Shown here: in pieces, positions 1-30,773 of the stretch
How positions within the stretch are numbered: the first letter of the stretch is position 1
How the letters are laid out: each line of letters begins with the position of its first letter
Assembly (NCBI GenBank): GCA_937944165.1
Contig: CALDZF010000167.1
Location: 1 to 37,347 of the forward strand
DNA: 37,347 nt
Origin: an uncultured Rhizobiaceae group bacterium
GTDB lineage: Bacteria > Pseudomonadota > Alphaproteobacteria > Rhizobiales > Rhizobiaceae
Direction: 5' to 3'
Notes under the pieces: model-generated
What the model was told of the DNA's origin: nothing
Seen by the model: only the letters and a program-made list of their open reading frames with translations
The model's database searches: none
Position numbers and translations under genes: made by a program

Positions 1-3000
1 GCCAGCTAACCGCCCTGCAGTTGCGCCATTTCTGACAGAAGTTTCAAATTCCGCATAAAGCTGTACGCGCATTTTTGTTAGCATTTCGCGATATTCATCC
101 AATGGGTGGGCACTAAGATAAAAACCAACTGCACCAAATTCGCGGTTGAGTTTTTCGCTGGCACTCCAAGCTTCGCAGAAAGGCATTTCGATTTTTGTTG
201 CTTCGCCACCTGAAGCCTCACCAAACATATCGTTTTGACCAGTTTCGCGATCACTTGCAGTTCTGTTTGCGTGTGCTACCAATCGCTCCAAACCAGCCAA
301 CATGCGCTCACGGGAATAATCAAAACAATCAAAAGCACCAGCACAAATCAGATTTTCAAGTGTGCGTTTATTGACCTGACGAATATTAATGCGCGAAAAG
401 AAATCTTCTATGGATTTATAGTCACCATTCTCGCAACGCTCGGAAACGATTTGTTCAACCGCCCCCTCACCAACACCTTTGATAGCTGCAAGAGCATAAA
501 GAATTTTACCATCCTTTACCTCAAAACCCACACCAGAAGTTTGAACAGAAGGTGGAACAACAGTAATTTCTTTCGCCTCCGCATCTTGATAAAAGATGCT
601 CAACTTATCCGTATTCCCCAAATCAAGCTGCATGGAACCTGCCAGAAATTCGACTGGGTAATTACACCGTAAATAAGCTGTTTGATAGGATACAAGCGCA
701 TAGGCTGCCGCGTGCGATTTGTTAAAGCCGTAATTGGCAAATTTCGCCAAAAGATCGAAGATTACGTTTGCTTCGCCTTTTTGAATGCCACGTTCAACTG
801 CACCATCAACAAAACGTACCCTTTGAGCTTCCATTTCTGAGGCAATTTTCTTACCCATAGCGCGGCGCAAGAGATCGGCTTCACCAAGCGAATATCCAGA
901 CAGGATTTGCGCGATTTGCATCACCTGCTCCTGATAAATGATAACGCCGTAGGTTTCCTTTAAAACACCTTCAATTTTTTCATGATAATAATCAGGCACT
1001 TCCTCGCCATGCTTACGGGCATTGTACGTTGGAATATTGTCCATTGGACCAGGGCGATAGAGCGCCACAAGCGCGATAATATCTTCAAAGCGGTCAGGTT
1101 TCATACCGATGAGGGCTTTACGCATGCCCTGACTTTCCAATTGGAAAACGCCAACGGTTTCACCGCGCGTCAACATTTCATAGGATTTTGCGTCATCAAT
1201 CGGGATATGAGCTAAATCAACGGTTATGCCGCTTTGAGCGATAAACTCGACTGCTTTTTCGAGTACCGTAAGGGTTTTCAAACCAAGGAAGTCAAACTTG
1301 ACCAGCCCCGCCTGCTCCACCCATTTCATGTTGTATTGAGTAACCGGCATCTCGGAACGCGGATCACGATAGAGTGGCACCAATTCATCGAGTTTACGGT
1401 CGCCAATTACGATGCCCGCAGCGTGGGTAGACGCGTGGCGATAAAGGCCTTCGAGACGTTTTGAAATATCAAAAAGCTTTGCGACGATTTCTTCTTCTTT
1501 TGCCGCTTCCTGCAAACGCGGCTCTCCGTCAATTGCTTCAGCAAGAGTCGTTGGATTTGCTGGGTTGTTCGGTACCATTTTGGTTAAACGGTCAACTTGA
1601 CCGTATGGCATTTGCAAAACGCGGCCGACATCACGCAAAACTGCTCGTGCTTGCAGCGTTCCGAAGGTAATGATTTGGGCTACCTGATCAGAACCGTATT
1701 TTGCTTGAACGTATTTGATAACCTCTTCGCGGCGCTCCTGACAAAAATCGATATCAAAGTCAGGCATGGAAACGCGTTCAGGGTTCAAGAAGCGCTCGAA
1801 AAGGAGCGAAAACTGCATTGGGTCAATGTCAGTTATCGTCAACGACCAGGCAACCAAAGACCCCGCACCTGAACCACGACCTGGCCCTACCGGAATGCCC
1901 TGCTCTTTTGCCCATTTGATAAAGTCGGCAACAATCAAAAAATAGCCAGGAAACCCCATTTGCTGAATTACGTCTAATTCAAATGCCAGACGGTCTTCAT
2001 AGTCTTTTCTTGTATAGCCTTCTGCAATTGGATATTTTTCCAATCTATCAACCAAACCAGCCTCGGACTGGCGGTGTAATTCATCATATTCGGCCTTGAG
2101 AGCTACCTCAGGTGCCGCATCTCCTTCAGTTTCAGTAAAACGAGGCAAAATGGGGTTTGTAGTTGTCTCTTTAAAGGCAATTCTTTTGGATATTAGAATT
2201 GTATTATCAATCGCTTCTGGAATTTCTTTAAATAATTGCTTCATCTCTGATTGAGACTTAAAATAATGATCGTGCGTTAACTTTCGACGCTCATCCATAT
2301 TGACCACAGCCCCTTCTGCGATACAGATGAGTGCATCGTGCGCTTCAAAGTCTTCACGCTTTGCAAAAAATGGCTGATTAGTAGCGACAAGGGCTATATT
2401 ATGTTGATAAGCGAGTTCAACCAAAGCCTGCTCGTTTTTACGGTCATAATTGGCATGGCGTTGTAATTCTATATATAGCCTGTCGCCATAGATTTCGTTT
2501 AGTTTTAATAATCGTTCCTCAGCATCCTGTTTTCGACCATCTTGTATCAACTTGTTGAGCGGGCCTTCAGAGGCACCCGTCAGGCAAATAATGCCTTCAT
2601 TATGTTTATTAAGCGCGTTGTAAGTAACATTAGGAAGATTACCCTCACCACAATCGATGTGAGCACTACTGACCAGTTTTTTAAGGTTGTCAAACCCCTT
2701 CTCATTCATGGCGAGGAATACAAGATAGGGAAATTCTATATGCCCTGAACGCGGTACATAATCCTTGTCATCTTGAAAATTAATCGCGAGTTTGCACCCC
2801 ATGATGGGTTGCAGTCCGTCTTTGGAAGCTTTTTCTGAAAACTCCAATGCACCAAACATGTTATTACGATCTGTAATCGCAAGTGCGGGCTGGTTATCAG
2901 CAATGGCAAGTTCCATTACTTTTTTGAGTTGCAATGCACCTTCAAGCAATGAGAAGGCAGAATGCACGTGAAGGTGAACAAACTCGGCAGTTTGATTATC

Positions 3001-3066
3001 GCCTTGTGTTGCATCTGTACCGCCTGCTAGCGCTACATTCATTTTTTGTACTGCTCTTGAAGCCAT
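1..3066 (-). CDS. dnaE: DNA polymerase III subunit alpha, replicative DnaE1 type (3' end truncated by window start)
   Basis: Not in the ORF track because it runs off the edge. Reverse-strand translation from ATG at 3066 gives MASRAVQKMNVALAGGTDATQGDNQTAEFVHLHVHSAFSLLEGALQLKKVMELAIADNQPALAITDRNNMFGALEF..., with PHP-domain HLHVHS, GPGRGSGAGSLVAW, PDFDIDFCQERREEVI, YRPGPMDNIP, and RRAMGKK. Confidence 0.97.
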   Translation of the reverse strand, partial: MASRAVQKMNVALAGGTDATQGDNQTAEFVHLHVHSAFSLLEGALQLKKVMELAIADNQPALAITDRNNMFGALEFSEKASKDGLQPIMGCKLAINFQDDKDYVPRSGHIEFPYLVFLAMNEKGFDNLKKLVSSAHIDCGEGNLPNVTYNALNKHNEGIICLTGASEGPLNKLIQDGRKQDAEERLLKLNEIYGDRLYIELQRHANYDRKNEQALVELAYQHNIALVATNQPFFAKREDFEAHDALICIAEGAVVNMDERRKLTHDHYFKSQSEMKQLFKEIPEAIDNTILISKRIAFKETTTNPILPRFTETEGDAAPEVALKAEYDELHRQSEAGLVDRLEKYPIAEGYTRKDYEDRLAFELDVIQQMGFPGYFLIVADFIKWAKEQGIPVGPGRGSGAGSLVAWSLTITDIDPMQFSLLFERFLNPERVSMPDFDIDFCQERREEVIKYVQAKYGSDQVAQIITFGTLQARAVLRDVGRVLQMPYGQVDRLTKMVPNNPANPTTLAEAIDGEPRLQEAAKEEEIVAKLFDISKRLEGLYRHASTHAAGIVIGDRKLDELVPLYRDPRSEMPVTQYNMKWVEQAGLVKFDFLGLKTLTVLEKAVEFIAQSGITVDLAHIPIDDAKSYEMLTRGETVGVFQLESQGMRKALIGMKPDRFEDIIALVALYRPGPMDNIPTYNARKHGEEVPDYYHEKIEGVLKETYGVIIYQEQVMQIAQILSGYSLGEADLLRRAMGKKIASEMEAQRVRFVDGAVERGIQKGEANVIFDLLAKFANYGFNKSHAAAYALVSYQTAYLRCNYPVEFLAGSMQLDLGNTDKLSIFYQDAEAKEITVVPPSVQTSGVGFEVKDGKILYALAAIKGVGEGAVEQIVSERCENGDYKSIEDFFSRINIRQVNKRTLENLICAGAFDCFDYSRERMLAGLERLVAHANRTASDRETGQNDMFGEASGGEATKIEMPFCEAWSASEKLNREFGAVGFYLSAHPLDEYREMLTKMRVQLYAEFETSVRNGATAGRLAG

Positions 3067-3176: not shown

Positions 3177-3275
3177 CTAGGCAACAAACTTAAGAATTTC
3201 ACCCCATGTAAACATAGTAGTTAAAAATAGAGAAATGGTAGCTAATGAAGCAATGTCTTTAATGGATACATACAT
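3177..3275 (-). CDS. Small 32-aa single-TM protein MYVSIKDIASLATISLFLTTMFTWGEILKFVA, putatively SOS-induced
   Basis: ATG at 3275, TAG stop at 3177-3179. Strong SD AGGAG (3283-3287) 7 nt upstream. Hydrophobic core consistent with one membrane helix. Preceded by tandem LexA-type boxes. Too short for the ORF track. Confidence 0.6.
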   Translation of the reverse strand: MYVSIKDIASLATISLFLTTMFTWGEILKFVA

Positions 3276-3319
3276 GGAACAACTCCTAAAACAATTATGT
3301 TCTCACTACAAAGCGTAAT

Positions 3320-3345
3320 GTTCTTATAATGTTCCATTTTTGTTC
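3320..3345 (-). promoter_or_regulatory. Tandem alphaproteobacterial LexA boxes (GTTC-N7-GTTC-N7-GTTC) overlapping a promoter
   Basis: Plus-strand GTTC at 3320, 3331 and 3342, exactly 11 bp apart; an extra GTTC at 3299-3302. A minus-strand TTGACA -35 lies at 3351-3356, with an AT-rich -10-like CATTATAAG inside the array. Confidence 0.75.
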
Positions 3346-3388
3346 TTTTTTGTCAATAGAAATAGAACAAATTTATCAATATTATTTA

Positions 3389-4087
3389 TTATTTAGTAAT
3401 ATCAACAACTTGCCCAGAATCCAAAGTAACAGTTCTATCCATTTGAGCAGCTAATTCATGGTTATGAGTAGCAATTAATGCTGACAAACCTGTTTGACGC
3501 ACCAAAACATTCAATGTATCAAATACATGAGCCGACGTTTCAGGATCAAGATTGCCTGTAGGTTCATCAGCCAATAATAAAGATGGTGCATTGGCAACAG
3601 CCCTTGCAATCGCCACGCGTTGTTGTTCACCACCAGAAAGTTCTGAAGGACGATGTTTTGCACGCGGAGCAATTTTCATATATTCGAGAAGTTCGCTGGC
3701 ACGTTTGCGCGACGTTTCTTTATCACGGCCTCTTACCATCTGCGGTATCATGAGATTTTCTTCTGCGGTAAATTCTGGTAGGAGGTGATGAAACTGATAA
3801 ACAAACCCTATTGTAGTACGTCTCAAAGCTGTGCGAGACTTATCATCCATTTTAGCCGTTGAATGCCCATTGATTAATACATCTCCCTTATCGGGACGTT
3901 CTAGCAGCCCGGCCGAGTGAAGAAGTGTAGACTTGCCTGTGCCAGAAGGCGCAACGAGCGCTACCATTTCACCCTTTTGGATTTGAAAGTTAGCATCCTG
4001 TAGCACGGTAAGCGTATGCTCACCCTCACCATATGTGCGTTCTAATGCTGAGATATTAAGAACAATATCTCCCCCATGATTATTCAT
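3389..4087 (-). CDS. lolD: Lipoprotein-releasing ABC transporter ATP-binding protein
   Basis: ABC ATPase with Walker A-like [23 protein letters not shown] signature, Walker [13 protein letters not shown]; next to a LolC/E permease. Confidence 0.93.
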
Positions 4088-5420
4088 ATCGAAGTGCCTC
4101 TACAGGGTCTAGTTTTGCCGCACGCCAAGCAGGAAATAACGTCGCAAGGAAAGACAAGGCAAGCGCCATTACCAATATCCATAGCGTTTCATTCATATCC
4201 ATTCGGGCAGGAATATTACTTAAAAAGCGTGTAGTTGGATCCCATGGATTATTACCAGTAACCCAAGTTACAAAGTCCTGAATTTGTTTAATGTAAGCAC
4301 AAACCAATACGCCTAGTAAAAAGCCAACAAGAGTTCCGACAACACCAATGGCAGAACCAGTAATCATAAAGACACGCATTACTGCGCCACGTGTTGTGCC
4401 CATGGTGCGTAATATTGCAATATCGTGGGATTTATCTTTAACCAGCATGATTAGCCCTGAAATAATATTCAGAGCAGCCACCAATATGATTAGCGTTAAA
4501 ATCATAAACATTACATTGCGCTCAACATCCAATGCAGAAGTTAAAGACGAATTACGTTGACGCCAATCAGATAAAAACAACTGCCTTTCAGAAGCTTCAA
4601 TTATAGCATCACGATAATCATCTACTTTGTCAGGATCATCGACATATATATCTATGACATCAACCTCTCCTTCCTTATTGAAATAAAGTTGTGATTCTTC
4701 CAAAGGCATGAAAACAAACGAACTATCATATTCAGACATGCCAATATCAAATATGGCATTGACGGGGTATGACTTAATTCTAGGCGTGACACCAAAAGCA
4801 GTTACATCACCTTTGGGCGAAATTAGCGTAATATCATCGCCTAATTGAAGACCAAGATTAGCTGCTAATCTGTGACCAATCGCGACACCTTCCTTTGTAT
4901 CAAACCCATCAAGTGTTCCTCGTCCCTGACCTTCAGGATTGATGCTGCCATCTTTTACATTCGTGACGCCATCAGCAATGGTTGATACACGTTTCATGTC
5001 GGCTTCTCGCATACCGCGTACTAGCGCACCACTGCTGCTATTTTCTATGACCCCATCGACAAGTACCTGACCTTCGACCAGCGGAATTGCAAATTTTACG
5101 CCTGTAGCTTTTTCCAAGCGTTTTGAAAGTTCGTCATAATCATTCAAAGGCGCTCCAATTGGATTAACAATCAAGTGCCCATTAAGCCCCAAAATTCGAT
5201 CCAGTAGCTCGGTGCGAAAGCCATTCATGACAGCCATAACGATAATCAATGTAGCAACACCAAGCATAATGCCAAGAAACGAGAAACCAGCAATGACAGA
5301 GATAAATGCTTCCTTGCGACGAGAGCGCAAATAACGGCTTGCTAACATCCATTCAAAGGCTGAAAATACTGAAGTTCCTGATTTTTCATTCATTACAGGT
5401 GCGTTAGTAATATCTGTCAT
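4080..5420 (-). CDS. lolC: Lipoprotein-releasing ABC transporter permease (LolC/LolE family)
   Basis: [52 protein letters not shown]-terminus, C-terminal FtsX-like TM region ending [21 protein letters not shown]; overlaps lolD start. Confidence 0.92.
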
Positions 5421-19867: not shown

Positions 19868-20431
19868 TTAACGCGGTTCTTTCCCGAATACCTTCACATA
19901 CTCTTCATGCCCACCATTAGCGAGCGCTTTTGCTTGTTCAACCCAATTATCTCGAACAATTCTACCTGTAAAATTCAAATGTGCATCCATTTGCTCGATA
20001 TCATGTTCATTCCAATTGGCAATTTGTTCGTATTGATAGATACCTAATGAATTTAAAGTTTCAGCAAGTTTTGCACCTACACCAGCGATTAACTCCAAAT
20101 CATCATGCTCTGCTGTCGAAGTTTGTTCCAGTGTGTTTGTCAAACCCAATATATTCGTAAGCGATACTGTTTCGGTAGGCTTTTTTGAAGTTTGAGATTG
20201 CTTTTTAGACTTCTTTTGAGTTTTCTTTTTCTTTTTCTTTTTAATAGTACATTCACAGCCGTTAGCATCTTCAATAAGTGCCTCAAGCTCTAAAAGCGCA
20301 AGAATGGCTTTCTTTTCTTGTTTGGCTTGCTTTTTTGCAAATGCACGAGATTTTTCTAATGCATTCAATGCCTTATCAACACTTTTCAAAAAATCGGCGG
20401 ATAAGACAGATTTTTGTTTTTTAGACATCAT
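19868..20431 (-). CDS. Lys-rich protein with C-terminal H3TH/HhH (5' DNA nuclease-like, COG3743-type) domain
   Basis: IAGVGAKLAETLNSLGIYQYEQIANWNEHDIEQMDAHLNFTGRIVRDNWVEQAKALA; KKKKKKKTQKKSKK tract. Start at 20431/20428 is favoured by GGGAG SD and avoids overlap with DUF3291; ORF track start is 20467. Confidence 0.8.
   Translation of the reverse strand: MMSKKQKSVLSADFLKSVDKALNALEKSRAFAKKQAKQEKKAILALLELEALIEDANGCECTIKKKKKKKTQKKSKKQSQTSKKPTETVSLTNILGLTNTLEQTSTAEHDDLELIAGVGAKLAETLNSLGIYQYEQIANWNEHDIEQMDAHLNFTGRIVRDNWVEQAKALANGGHEEYVKVFGKEPR
20221..20243 (-). repeat. Imperfect (CTTTTT)n hexanucleotide tract encoding poly-Lys
   Basis: gttttctttttctttttctttttaa on plus strand. Confidence 0.6.
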
Positions 20432-20442
20432 CTTTACTCCCT

Positions 20443-20907
20443 TTATCCGCATCTTTGGTTTTGCCACAACTTCACATGTGAAAGGTATGACCAGCTAAAT
20501 GCAAAATCTGTGTCGCCATGAAAATCAATATGATCGAGGCGAGATTTTGCTTCCTCAAGATTTGGTTCATGTCCCTCTTCTACCCACCACATAACAAGTT
20601 GATGGCTATCAAGTGCGCCGAACCAGTCGTTCTTACCATTGTAGACTTTTTTGTGAACAGTATTCCAAACAAAATGCTCAAGTGTTTCAGCACTTTCCCA
20701 GACAGATAAAGTCATTTCTGTTTCAGGATCAGGACAAACTGCATTGGCTCCAAATTCATTGCGTTGCTCATCAAGCAATCGCCATACAAAACCTTCGCTT
20801 CGCTCCGCCAAAGCATTTATGCGCTCAACATTATCAGTAAAGCCACCAGCCAATTGTGATGTCTTGTCGATTTTCCATCGGGATATGTTGAGTTCAGCCA
20901 AGTGCAT
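20443..20907 (-). CDS. DUF3291 domain-containing protein
   Basis: MHLAELNISRWKI...VWESAETLEHFVWNTVHKKVY...DSHQLVMWWVEEGHEPNLEEAKSRLDHI. Confidence 0.85.
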   Translation of the reverse strand: MHLAELNISRWKIDKTSQLAGGFTDNVERINALAERSEGFVWRLLDEQRNEFGANAVCPDPETEMTLSVWESAETLEHFVWNTVHKKVYNGKNDWFGALDSHQLVMWWVEEGHEPNLEEAKSRLDHIDFHGDTDFAFSWSYLSHVKLWQNQRCG

Positions 20908-22258: not shown

Positions 22259-23251
22259 TTAAGCCTTTTTCTTCGCTAAAACTTTTGCTTGTTTAATCCA
22301 GTCATCGCGCTCAATGCGTCCTTTGAAGGATAGTTCGTCATCGACAATAGCAACGTCGGCTTTTTTCCAACTTGCAATTTGCGAGAAATGCCAAAACCCT
22401 AGTTTATTGAGCGTTTTTTCAAGTTTAGGCCCAACACCAGATATCTCTTGTAAATTATCTGCCTTACCTTCAGCTTTTTTCAACCGTATTGGGCCAGCTG
22501 ATTTTGATACTGCTTTTTTAGGCGCTGCTTTGGTAGCTGATTTTGTAGTTGCAGCCTTGGGCATTGATTTCTTTGCAGGCGCTTTTTTGGGTGCAACTTT
22601 TTTAACAGTCAGTTTTGTCTTTGTAGCCATAACAGCAGCAGGTTCAGATTTCAACGAAGTCAAACCACCAACAGGGGCAGAGTAAATGCGATCTATTTGA
22701 GGACCAGCTTTTATACTATCCCCTTTGCCAGCTTCACAGGCATCAATGATTTCTTCAAGGCGTTCAGTCGTTAAGTCTTCGTAAGTGTCTTTGAAGATCA
22801 TAACCATCGGTGCGTTTACACACGCACCCTGACATTCAACCTCTTCCCAAGATAAAGTACCATCTGCATTGGTTTCAAATTGGTTCTGATTGATTTTTGA
22901 CTTACAGACTTTCATCAATTCTTCTGAGCCACGCAGCATACAGGGTGTTGTTCCGCAAACCTGAATATGAGCCTTTGTGCCAACAGGCTGAAGCATAAAT
23001 TGTGTGTAAAATGTTGCAACTTCAAGCACACGAATATAAGGCATTTCAAGCATTTCTGCGATATGTTCGATTGAAGCTTTTGTAACCCAACCGTCTTGCT
23101 CTTGAGCAATCATCAACAAAGGAATAACAGCAGAAGCTTTACGATCTTTAGGGTATTTTTTAATCCAACCTTTTACCACAGGCGTATTAGGACGACTGAA
23201 GGCAAATTTTGCTGGTTGCACACTATCATCAGCGAGACGACGAACGGACAT
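22259..23251 (-). CDS. nuoE: NADH-quinone oxidoreductase subunit E with C-terminal Ala/Lys linker and H3TH domain
   Basis: QVCGTTPCMLRGSEEL, ECQGACVNAPMV thioredoxin-like 2Fe-2S; then KKAPAKKSMPKAATTKSATKAAPKK linker and ISGVGPKLEKTLNKLGFWHFSQIASW. Confidence 0.95.
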   Translation of the reverse strand: MSVRRLADDSVQPAKFAFSRPNTPVVKGWIKKYPKDRKASAVIPLLMIAQEQDGWVTKASIEHIAEMLEMPYIRVLEVATFYTQFMLQPVGTKAHIQVCGTTPCMLRGSEELMKVCKSKINQNQFETNADGTLSWEEVECQGACVNAPMVMIFKDTYEDLTTERLEEIIDACEAGKGDSIKAGPQIDRIYSAPVGGLTSLKSEPAAVMATKTKLTVKKVAPKKAPAKKSMPKAATTKSATKAAPKKAVSKSAGPIRLKKAEGKADNLQEISGVGPKLEKTLNKLGFWHFSQIASWKKADVAIVDDELSFKGRIERDDWIKQAKVLAKKKA

Positions 23252-28118: not shown

Positions 28119-30773
28119 CTAAAAGTTTAATGAAACATCTCTATGGCCAGAATTACAGCTTGCAATAAACACTCCCAGAGGATGCGGCATGTTATCTTGT
28201 TGGCGCAAGCCAATTGTACCACTAATTGCCGCTTCATAAGATTGAACCTTGGGTAATAAATCCTGACTTGCAGCTTCCGAACGCCATTCAACTTCTTCAT
28301 CATAAGCGGAAGTTGCTTTGTCCAATTCCTTAAGAGCCTTTTCCTTGTCTGGCGTTTTTGCTTTTAATGCGCGCCTAACTTTTGAAAGCGCCTTTTTAAC
28401 ATCACTGGGGCCGGCAATATCACCAAAAGTTTTTTCCAAAGCTTGCACAACAGGTACCATGGATAATGCTTCTTCAGCTTCTATACGCGCAGCTAAGCCT
28501 TTCAAGCTTTCACCTTGCTCGACGAATGCACCAGTGCTCGCCAAAGTATCCATTACCTCTCTCACAGGCTCATAAGCATTGTCCGCTGCTCTTCTATATT
28601 GTGTTCTAAGTTTTGATTCCACTTTTAAAATCTCAACAAACTTTTTACGTTCATCTTGCCATTCACTCGGTATTAATGCACGAAGTTCTTCTTGCTCGGC
28701 TTTTATACCTTCAATGGTTTTGGTAATCCTGTCACGCCTTGAAGCATTTTCCTCACCACGCAGTTTACTTGAACGTTCTTCAAGGTCTTTAATTTCAGCA
28801 TCCAGAATACGAATGTCTCTTTGTAAGGCACGCACTTTAATGTGTAGCGGACGGTATTCAATTGAGGCTTCTTCAACAACCATCTCCGCCTTAAATGCCT
28901 CATTCAAAATACTAATCGTACTTCCTGCGTCTTCAAGGCTGTCTGAGAAATCTTTGGATAGTTTTTTAGGAAGACTGCTAACATCAATTGAACCAGCAAG
29001 ATTAATAGCATTGGTAATTTGGCTACCATTTTCGGCAAATTGCTGGCCAACATATTTCTCAACGCAATATTGCAGTTGTGGGTTTCTTGGCGGCGGCGCT
29101 GTTTCAGATAAAAGCAGTGAGCGGTTTGGTAAATAATTTACAAGGCTTGGATAGAGCCCGACAATTACAAGCGCTGTCAGCTGCAAACCAATAAATGCAA
29201 TTACACCTTTATACATCGCAAGTGTCTTAACTGTAGCAGGTGCAACACCCCTTAAATAAAACAACGCGAAACCAAAAGGTGGCGTTAAGAAAGAAGTTTG
29301 AATATTCAAACCAATCATTACACCCAACCAAACAGCGGTAATATTAGCGGATGGGTCAGAAAGTAAAATTGGTGCAACGATAGGCACAACAACAACGGCA
29401 ATCTCAATAAAATCGAGGAAGAAGCCCAGTATAAAGATAACGGCCATGACAATTATAAATTTAGTCCAAAAGCCGCCAGGCAATCCATCAAGGAAATGCT
29501 TGATAAGTTCTTCACCACCAAATGCACGGAAAGCTGCGGTAAGCATTGCAGCACCTAACAGAATAATAAAAACCAACGAGGTTGTTTTGGCAGTCTCAAC
29601 CATAACACTACGCAAAGTGTCTTCTACTTTATAAACACGCCACCCACTCCAGGCCAAGGATAACAACAACGCGGCAACAGCAGTTATTGCAATTGCAATA
29701 CCTGTCTTACTTGCCGCAACGCTTTTTATATTTGTGTCAAAGTTTGAGACAGTAAAACCAATCACAATCATTGATATGATTGCAATTAAGGCAGGCCAAT
29801 AAGCTGTTTTATTACCTTCATGAAGACGATATCCAGCCATTATCAATGCACCAGCAGCACCAATAGCGCCCGCTTGATTTACCGTTGCAACGCCTGATAA
29901 AATTGAACCCAGCACAAGGAAAATCAAAGCAAGCGGCGGAATGAGTATTATAAAAACTTTGCCCCAAAAAGCTGCATTAAAACTGCCCTCATAACGAACC
30001 GCAGGTGCAGACTTGGGATTAAAGAAAGCATAAACCAAAATATAAAGCATGTATAAGATAACAAGCACGATACCAGGTACAAAAGCACCCAAGAACATTT
30101 CGCCTGCACTGGTAGAGCCTACATCAAATGCAGATGGCATTGAAAGTTCGCCAGTATTTTCTTTGAACAAATTCTTACGCGCAGTACCAGCCTGATCCGC
30201 AGCACTGGAAAGCTGATCGGCCAGAATAATCAAAACAATCGAAGGCGGGATAATTTGCCCCAAGGTACCTGATGCAGCAATTGTACCCGTTGCCAAGGAA
30301 GGTGAATAATTATTGCGCAACATGGCGGGCAATGAAATCAGCCCCATGGCCACAACGGTTGCACCCACAATACCCGTCGTAGCTGCTAATAATGCGCCCA
30401 CGAAGATAACAGAAATACCAAGTCCACCTGGCACAGGACCAAATAGCTGAGCCATGGTAATTAACAAGTCTTCGGCAATCTTTGAACGTTGAAGCATAAT
30501 GCCCATAAAAATAAACAACGGAATTGCAATGAGCGTGTCTCGTTCGGGTTCCCAATACACCCCACGCAAGTTTGTAACCCCTGCACTCAGCCATTGAGCC
30601 GGTCCGCCTTGCGCAAAATAAGCATCAACGTCTCCAGCAAAAAGATACCCGCATAAAGCTGCAGAAGAAATTGAAATGATTGCAGCACCCGGTAGAGAAA
30701 ACGCGACTGGATAGCCTGCCCCCAATGCAAACGCCATTGTTAGAACTAGAACAAGAAGAAAGACCAATTCCAT
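28119..30773 (-). CDS. dctM: TRAP transporter large permease (DctM family) with long C-terminal extension
   Basis: AIPLFIFMGIMLQRS, GATVVAMGLISLPAMLRNNYSPSLATGTIAASGTLGQIIPPSIVLIILAD, FLTPPFGFALFYLRG; then ~330 aa of charged, coiled-coil-like sequence. Confidence 0.9.
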   Translation of the reverse strand: MELVFLLVLVLTMAFALGAGYPVAFSLPGAAIISISSAALCGYLFAGDVDAYFAQGGPAQWLSAGVTNLRGVYWEPERDTLIAIPLFIFMGIMLQRSKIAEDLLITMAQLFGPVPGGLGISVIFVGALLAATTGIVGATVVAMGLISLPAMLRNNYSPSLATGTIAASGTLGQIIPPSIVLIILADQLSSAADQAGTARKNLFKENTGELSMPSAFDVGSTSAGEMFLGAFVPGIVLVILYMLYILVYAFFNPKSAPAVRYEGSFNAAFWGKVFIILIPPLALIFLVLGSILSGVATVNQAGAIGAAGALIMAGYRLHEGNKTAYWPALIAIISMIVIGFTVSNFDTNIKSVAASKTGIAIAITAVAALLLSLAWSGWRVYKVEDTLRSVMVETAKTTSLVFIILLGAAMLTAAFRAFGGEELIKHFLDGLPGGFWTKFIIVMAVIFILGFFLDFIEIAVVVVPIVAPILLSDPSANITAVWLGVMIGLNIQTSFLTPPFGFALFYLRGVAPATVKTLAMYKGVIAFIGLQLTALVIVGLYPSLVNYLPNRSLLLSETAPPPRNPQLQYCVEKYVGQQFAENGSQITNAINLAGSIDVSSLPKKLSKDFSDSLEDAGSTISILNEAFKAEMVVEEASIEYRPLHIKVRALQRDIRILDAEIKDLEERSSKLRGEENASRRDRITKTIEGIKAEQEELRALIPSEWQDERKKFVEILKVESKLRTQYRRAADNAYEPVREVMDTLASTGAFVEQGESLKGLAARIEAEEALSMVPVVQALEKTFGDIAGPSDVKKALSKVRRALKAKTPDKEKALKELDKATSAYDEEVEWRSEAASQDLLPKVQSYEAAISGTIGLRQQDNMPHPLGVFIASCNSGHRDVSLNF

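Follow-up and report, generated by a model that had tools for sequence, protein, structure and literature searches.

A LexA-type operator in front of dnaE and a putative SidA-family microprotein in a Rhizobiaceae bacterium and its relatives

Introduction

Which gene is served by a LexA-type operator that lies in front of dnaE, and what is the very small putative membrane protein that is encoded between the two? The question is raised by a stretch of 37,347 nucleotides from an uncultured Rhizobiaceae bacterium (the window, by which we mean the whole stretch of DNA that was analysed), in which a 32-codon open reading frame (ORF) is found at this position. In Caulobacter, the SOS-induced protein SidA, with a length of 29 aa, acts on FtsW/FtsN (PMC4211646). 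In the open literature that we searched, no recognised SOS division inhibitor was found described for alphaproteobacteria outside Caulobacter, and no SidA homologues outside Caulobacter were found either, an earlier mention in the original SidA paper being possible. As a SidA-type microprotein is already known from Caulobacter, it is the class-wide extent that makes the locus interesting.

Results and Discussion

Read on the reverse strand from lolD towards dnaE, the locus shows TTGACA, three GAAC half-sites, AGGAG and the 32-codon ORF in this order. Its features are:

1..3066, reverse strand: dnaE (DNA polymerase III alpha), downstream of the ORF and cut by the window end; aligned to the dnaE of relatives
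3177..3275, reverse strand: ORF of a putative 32-aa single-TM SidA-family microprotein; conserved, under purifying selection, a member of the family profile, one confidently predicted helix
3283..3287, reverse strand: Shine-Dalgarno sequence AGGAG, read directly, 7 nt 5' of the ATG; conserved in the genus copies
3320..3345, reverse strand: LexA-type operator of three GAAC half-sites (two overlapping GAAC-N7-GAAC boxes); N7-specific enrichment upstream of dnaE class-wide
3351..3356, reverse strand: -35-like TTGACA, immediately upstream of the operator; TTGAC conserved beside the box in relatives
3389..4087, reverse strand: lolD (lipoprotein-export ABC ATPase), upstream; Pfam ABC_tran, named from its order with lolC
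4080..5420, reverse strand: lolC/E-like permease (FtsX and MacB_PCD domain matches), upstream of lolD

The ORF encodes MYVSIKDIASLATISLFLTTMFTWGEILKFVA, with the ATG at 3275 and the stop codon ending at 3177, and is separated from the dnaE start at 3066 by 110 nt, one less than the 111 nt given in a preliminary description of the locus. The other elements named there, an ORF with AGGAG at 7-nt spacing, three GTTC half-sites at exact 11-bp intervals and a TTGACA element, are all present on the reverse strand and could be read directly.

The half-sites are located at 3345-3342, 3334-3331 and 3323-3320, in steps of exactly 11 bp, and are followed on the upstream side by TTGACA at 3356-3351. A single GTTC-N7-GTTC pair is unremarkable, with 0.96 expected in the window; the triple array did not appear in any of 100 window shuffles and occurs once in the 2.8-Mb genome. 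Genome-wide, 47 GTTC-N7-GTTC pairs compare with 179 for the reversed pattern, a raw count that is uninformative, and LexA sites in this genome are meaningful only if they are AT-rich and located before SOS genes. GAAC-(A/T-rich 7)-GAAC precedes recA (L006), lexA (L386, around 1436) and ssb (L002) of the source genome, in which one LexA is encoded. In a sigma-70 scan no -10 hexamer was found 16-18 nt from TTGACA and a promoter was not called, so that the promoter reading rests on the conserved TTGAC element. Like SidA, the window ORF appears to carry a GTTC-N7-GTTC operator in its promoter, which is conserved in relatives, and its LexA-type control is, as far as sequence can tell, well supported.

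The preliminary description had named conservation of the ORF with a non-random pattern of synonymous and non-synonymous changes as a check. This pattern is present. Among the five closest copies pN/pS is 0.06 (pS 0.63, pN 0.04) and the pairwise differences by codon position amount to 30/8/131, while pN/pS is 0.24 for ten genus copies, in which the variable columns are clustered at third codon positions (p about 1e-4); the other two frames of the genus alignment are free of this third-position pattern. Judged by these substitutions, the window ORF is therefore a translated gene under strong purifying selection. Of the 101 related genomes covered by a protein search, 12 belong to the genus of the window, and 10 of these have the ORF, as do members of other genera; a position-independent profile search of the window's family gave a family copy in 68 of the 81 genomes sampled. 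Neither Pfam nor NCBIfam gave a match to the ORF at E <= 10.

To place the protein, we turn to Caulobacter. An ORF that is 29 aa long, or 30 aa in C. segnis, and follows the pattern M[IV]R[IL]ARESLA[LF]xSVAxFVWMMCxVAQLVA is present in the dnaE flank of 16 named Caulobacter and Phenylobacterium genomes, with a LexA box that is exact in 11 of the 16 regions and has one mismatch in the other five. In C. vibrioides OR37 it is located exactly between a gene with the Pfam domain IU_nuc_hydro and dnaE. Published assignments (see also PMC12700426) give sidA as CCNA_02004 (PMC10769358), CCNA_02005 as an inosine-uridine nucleoside hydrolase (PMC3667746) and the Caulobacter dnaE as CC1926 (PMC1839093). 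Given the order of nucleoside hydrolase and dnaE, the length of 29 aa and the LexA box, the ORF in the dnaE flank of Caulobacter and Phenylobacterium is therefore sidA.

A profile was seeded from other families and iterated with Caulobacter and Phenylobacterium excluded, and it detects the Caulobacter ORF in 15 of the 16 genomes at E values of 6e-7 to 1.4e-4, whereas none of 1,232 decoy ORFs from the reverse strand scored better than E 7.8. A typical ORF of the SidA type scores 21.0 bits and its 500 shuffled versions at most 12.6 bits, showing that the order of residues matters. A profile from the window's own order alone gives the Caulobacter ORF E values of 0.7-13 and is too narrow for SidA, so that intermediate families are needed as a bridge. 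From the start methionine onwards the alignment is ungapped (consensus MtdllrDiAALvSlslFvasvavWl, window MYVSIKDIASLATISLFLTTMFTWG, Caulobacter MIRIARESLALVSVASFVWMMC). In common are a pair of one basic and one acidic residue close to the start and an A-[AS]-L stretch of small residues with Phe behind it. Pairwise identity between the window protein and the Caulobacter SidA-type ORFs is 10-17%, and what supports the proposed link is the profile, together with synteny and an ungapped alignment anchored at the start. SidA (CCNA_02004) and the window protein share the locus (LexA box, ORF, dnaE), the size class, a predicted single helix and the LexA-type control; they differ in that the window protein, of 32 aa, extends further at the C-terminus (tail WGEILKFVA) and has a triple half-site operator and the 110-nt gap to dnaE. 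Homology to SidA, which the preliminary description had suggested as one reading, is thus well supported by sequence comparison through the shared locus, the profile and the identification of the Caulobacter ORF as sidA, and the comparison of synteny and alignment that had been proposed there gave the same dnaE-upstream position and an alignment free of gaps.

The dnaE 5' flanks of 241 genomes were collected, and 96 of these flanks contain GAAC-N7-GAAC (spacers of 2-6 and 8-12 nt: 1-11 genomes each), in a sample that leans towards DnaE resembling that of the window. In 73 of the 96 boxed regions TTGAC lies no more than 30 nt upstream of the box, in 61 at a distance of 2-7 nt (background 2.7%), and therefore the layout itself, a predicted LexA operator pressed against a -35-like element, is conserved. 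An ORF of 22-60 aa preceded by a Shine-Dalgarno sequence, with a membrane-type hydrophobic stretch and within 250 nt, occurs in 88 of these 96 regions, compared with 1.3% at matched positions of unboxed regions and 2.5% on the opposite strand. Applied to 396 genomes sampled across the class, the profile gave 33 matches at E <= 0.05, the strong ones with a box directly upstream; as the profile is short, this figure is a lower bound that includes some false weak matches. Some boxed dnaE flanks beyond the reach of the profile (L073, L081, L120, L143 and similar) also encode a TM ORF preceded by a Shine-Dalgarno sequence, for example MSEWVKDTAALFVLGAVMWSGFALTAAAQAAG, so that the family or analogues of it extend further than the profile does. 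In the window's family, LexA and the microprotein are both missing from two small genomes; in several genomes LexA is present but no copy was detected, and two carriers of a copy gave no match to LexA, so the correlation is weak.

One could read the box as making dnaE itself SOS-inducible, and the ORF as tuning the expression of dnaE, either as a leader peptide or as an upstream ORF, and the preliminary description had similarly offered a replication modulator as an alternative. In most genomes the ORF is indeed adjacent to and co-directional with dnaE, in Caulobacter it abuts dnaE, and no terminator was found between the window ORF and dnaE. However, the distance between ORF and dnaE varies widely among genomes, and ORF copies apart from dnaE keep the box directly 5' (L057, L441, L442, L444, L445), with lolD beside them in L057, L441 and L444 and neither lolD nor dnaE in L442 and L445. 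Moreover, where the ORF is missing, at 33 dnaE loci in the window's family, the box is missing as well, and the peptide sequence is conserved beyond a mere open frame. As the box moves with the ORF away from dnaE and both are missing together, the putative operator before dnaE serves the microprotein and not dnaE. We therefore regard the leader reading as very improbable, and the replication-modulator alternative does not agree with a box that stays with the ORF when ORF and dnaE separate.

The protein could also be a membrane peptide without any effect on the divisome. TisB of E. coli is an SOS membrane peptide of 29 aa, and a TisB-like protein would depolarise the membrane and slow growth; size class, LexA control and a single hydrophobic helix are common to both. 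Yet TisB shows no similarity to the family profile (-0.7 bits), an R/K-D/E motif at the start of the helix is conserved in the family, and mutations in FtsW and FtsI suppress the lethality published for SidA (PMC4211646), making this reading very improbable. A microprotein that descended from SidA and stayed under LexA control might instead have acquired another partner here, such as the elongation machinery or the export complex of lolCD, as the low identity to SidA, the different C-terminal tail and the close neighbour lolCD could suggest. We consider this very unlikely, since the ORF occurs without lolD in L442 and L445 and no evidence points to another partner.

We favour, and hold to be highly probable, that the window protein is a LexA-repressed inner-membrane microprotein of the SidA family that blocks septal wall synthesis via FtsW/FtsN. 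Its predicted structure is one helix from residue 2 to 31 (mean pLDDT 93.4) of modest hydropathy (1.54 over 17 aa), consistent with a protein of about 29 aa and one membrane helix such as SidA, and with basic residues close to its N-terminus the helix would probably be oriented N-in. About half of the dnaE loci in the window's family have no microprotein gene alongside, which, like the low identity to SidA and the modest hydropathy of the helix, speaks against this reading. Following the example of Caulobacter SidA, it would be induced by damage and inserted into the membrane, and inhibition of division with FtsW/FtsN as target is most likely its role. DNA damage would inactivate LexA by cleavage and only then would the microprotein be made; its single helix would insert into the membrane and hold the septal wall-synthesis complex of FtsW, FtsI and FtsN inactive, and septation and division would be delayed until the DNA is repaired. 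As a LexA-controlled counterpart of SidA appears to be conserved before dnaE in many alphaproteobacteria, the microprotein is probably the means by which its carriers pause division upon DNA damage.

Several other inhibitors are comparable. DidA of Caulobacter is a damage-induced single-TM inhibitor of division acting on the FtsW/I/N complex (PMC4211646), as proposed here for the window protein, but it has 71 aa, is SOS-independent (DriD) and is not located at dnaE. The SOS-controlled single-TM inhibitors YneA, ChiZ and SosA of Gram-positive bacteria are proposed to act on FtsW (PMC13396833); in contrast to the window protein they are longer and have extracellular domains or extensions, and they are not known to be homologous to it. 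SulA of E. coli has the same role as SOS division inhibitor but inhibits FtsZ polymerisation, and no PF03846 match was found in the source genome, a fragmented assembly of 84.69% completeness.

It seems likely that SidA is not confined to Caulobacter and represents an ancestral SOS checkpoint of division, mostly without annotation, in much of the Alphaproteobacteria, with family members of 24-47 aa. If true, a LexA operator is hidden before dnaE that may be taken as a sign that the replicative polymerase is under SOS control, and assigning this box to the microprotein corrects a likely misreading. With candidate genes and their operators in dozens of families, the question can be tested in any genetically tractable carrier, and the variation within the family, with a largely kept helix core [RK][DE]-x-A-[AS]-L and a free C-terminal tail, offers natural material for mapping how a helix of 30 residues would stop FtsW/FtsN.

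In some relatives a family copy is located away from dnaE (G026:C27:37437-37520 and G637:C23:56580-56660), and the same contig encodes a short second LexA-like domain at a distance of 6-15 kb (G026:C27:31130, 112 aa; G637:C23:41718, 125 aa). Perhaps these are mobile elements with a SidA-like peptide of their own.

Elsewhere in the window, the nuo operon includes a gene for a DUF3291 protein (20443..20907, reverse strand), which directly follows a 441-aa nuoF-like ORF and overlaps the ORF that comes next. Pfam gave no match to a 199-aa ORF (19868..20467, reverse strand). Its final tail, GVGAKLAETLNSLGIYQYEQIANW..., is a close copy of the tail at the C-terminus of the nuoE-like ORF (22259..23251, reverse strand), GVGPKLEKTLNKLGFWHFSQIASW...; both tails follow a lysine-rich linker and form a helix-hairpin-helix-like repeat in the complex I operon. 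The TRAP DctM permease (28119..30773, reverse strand) is unusually long with 884 aa, is matched by DctM in three stretches and carries a charged, coiled-coil-like C-terminal extension.
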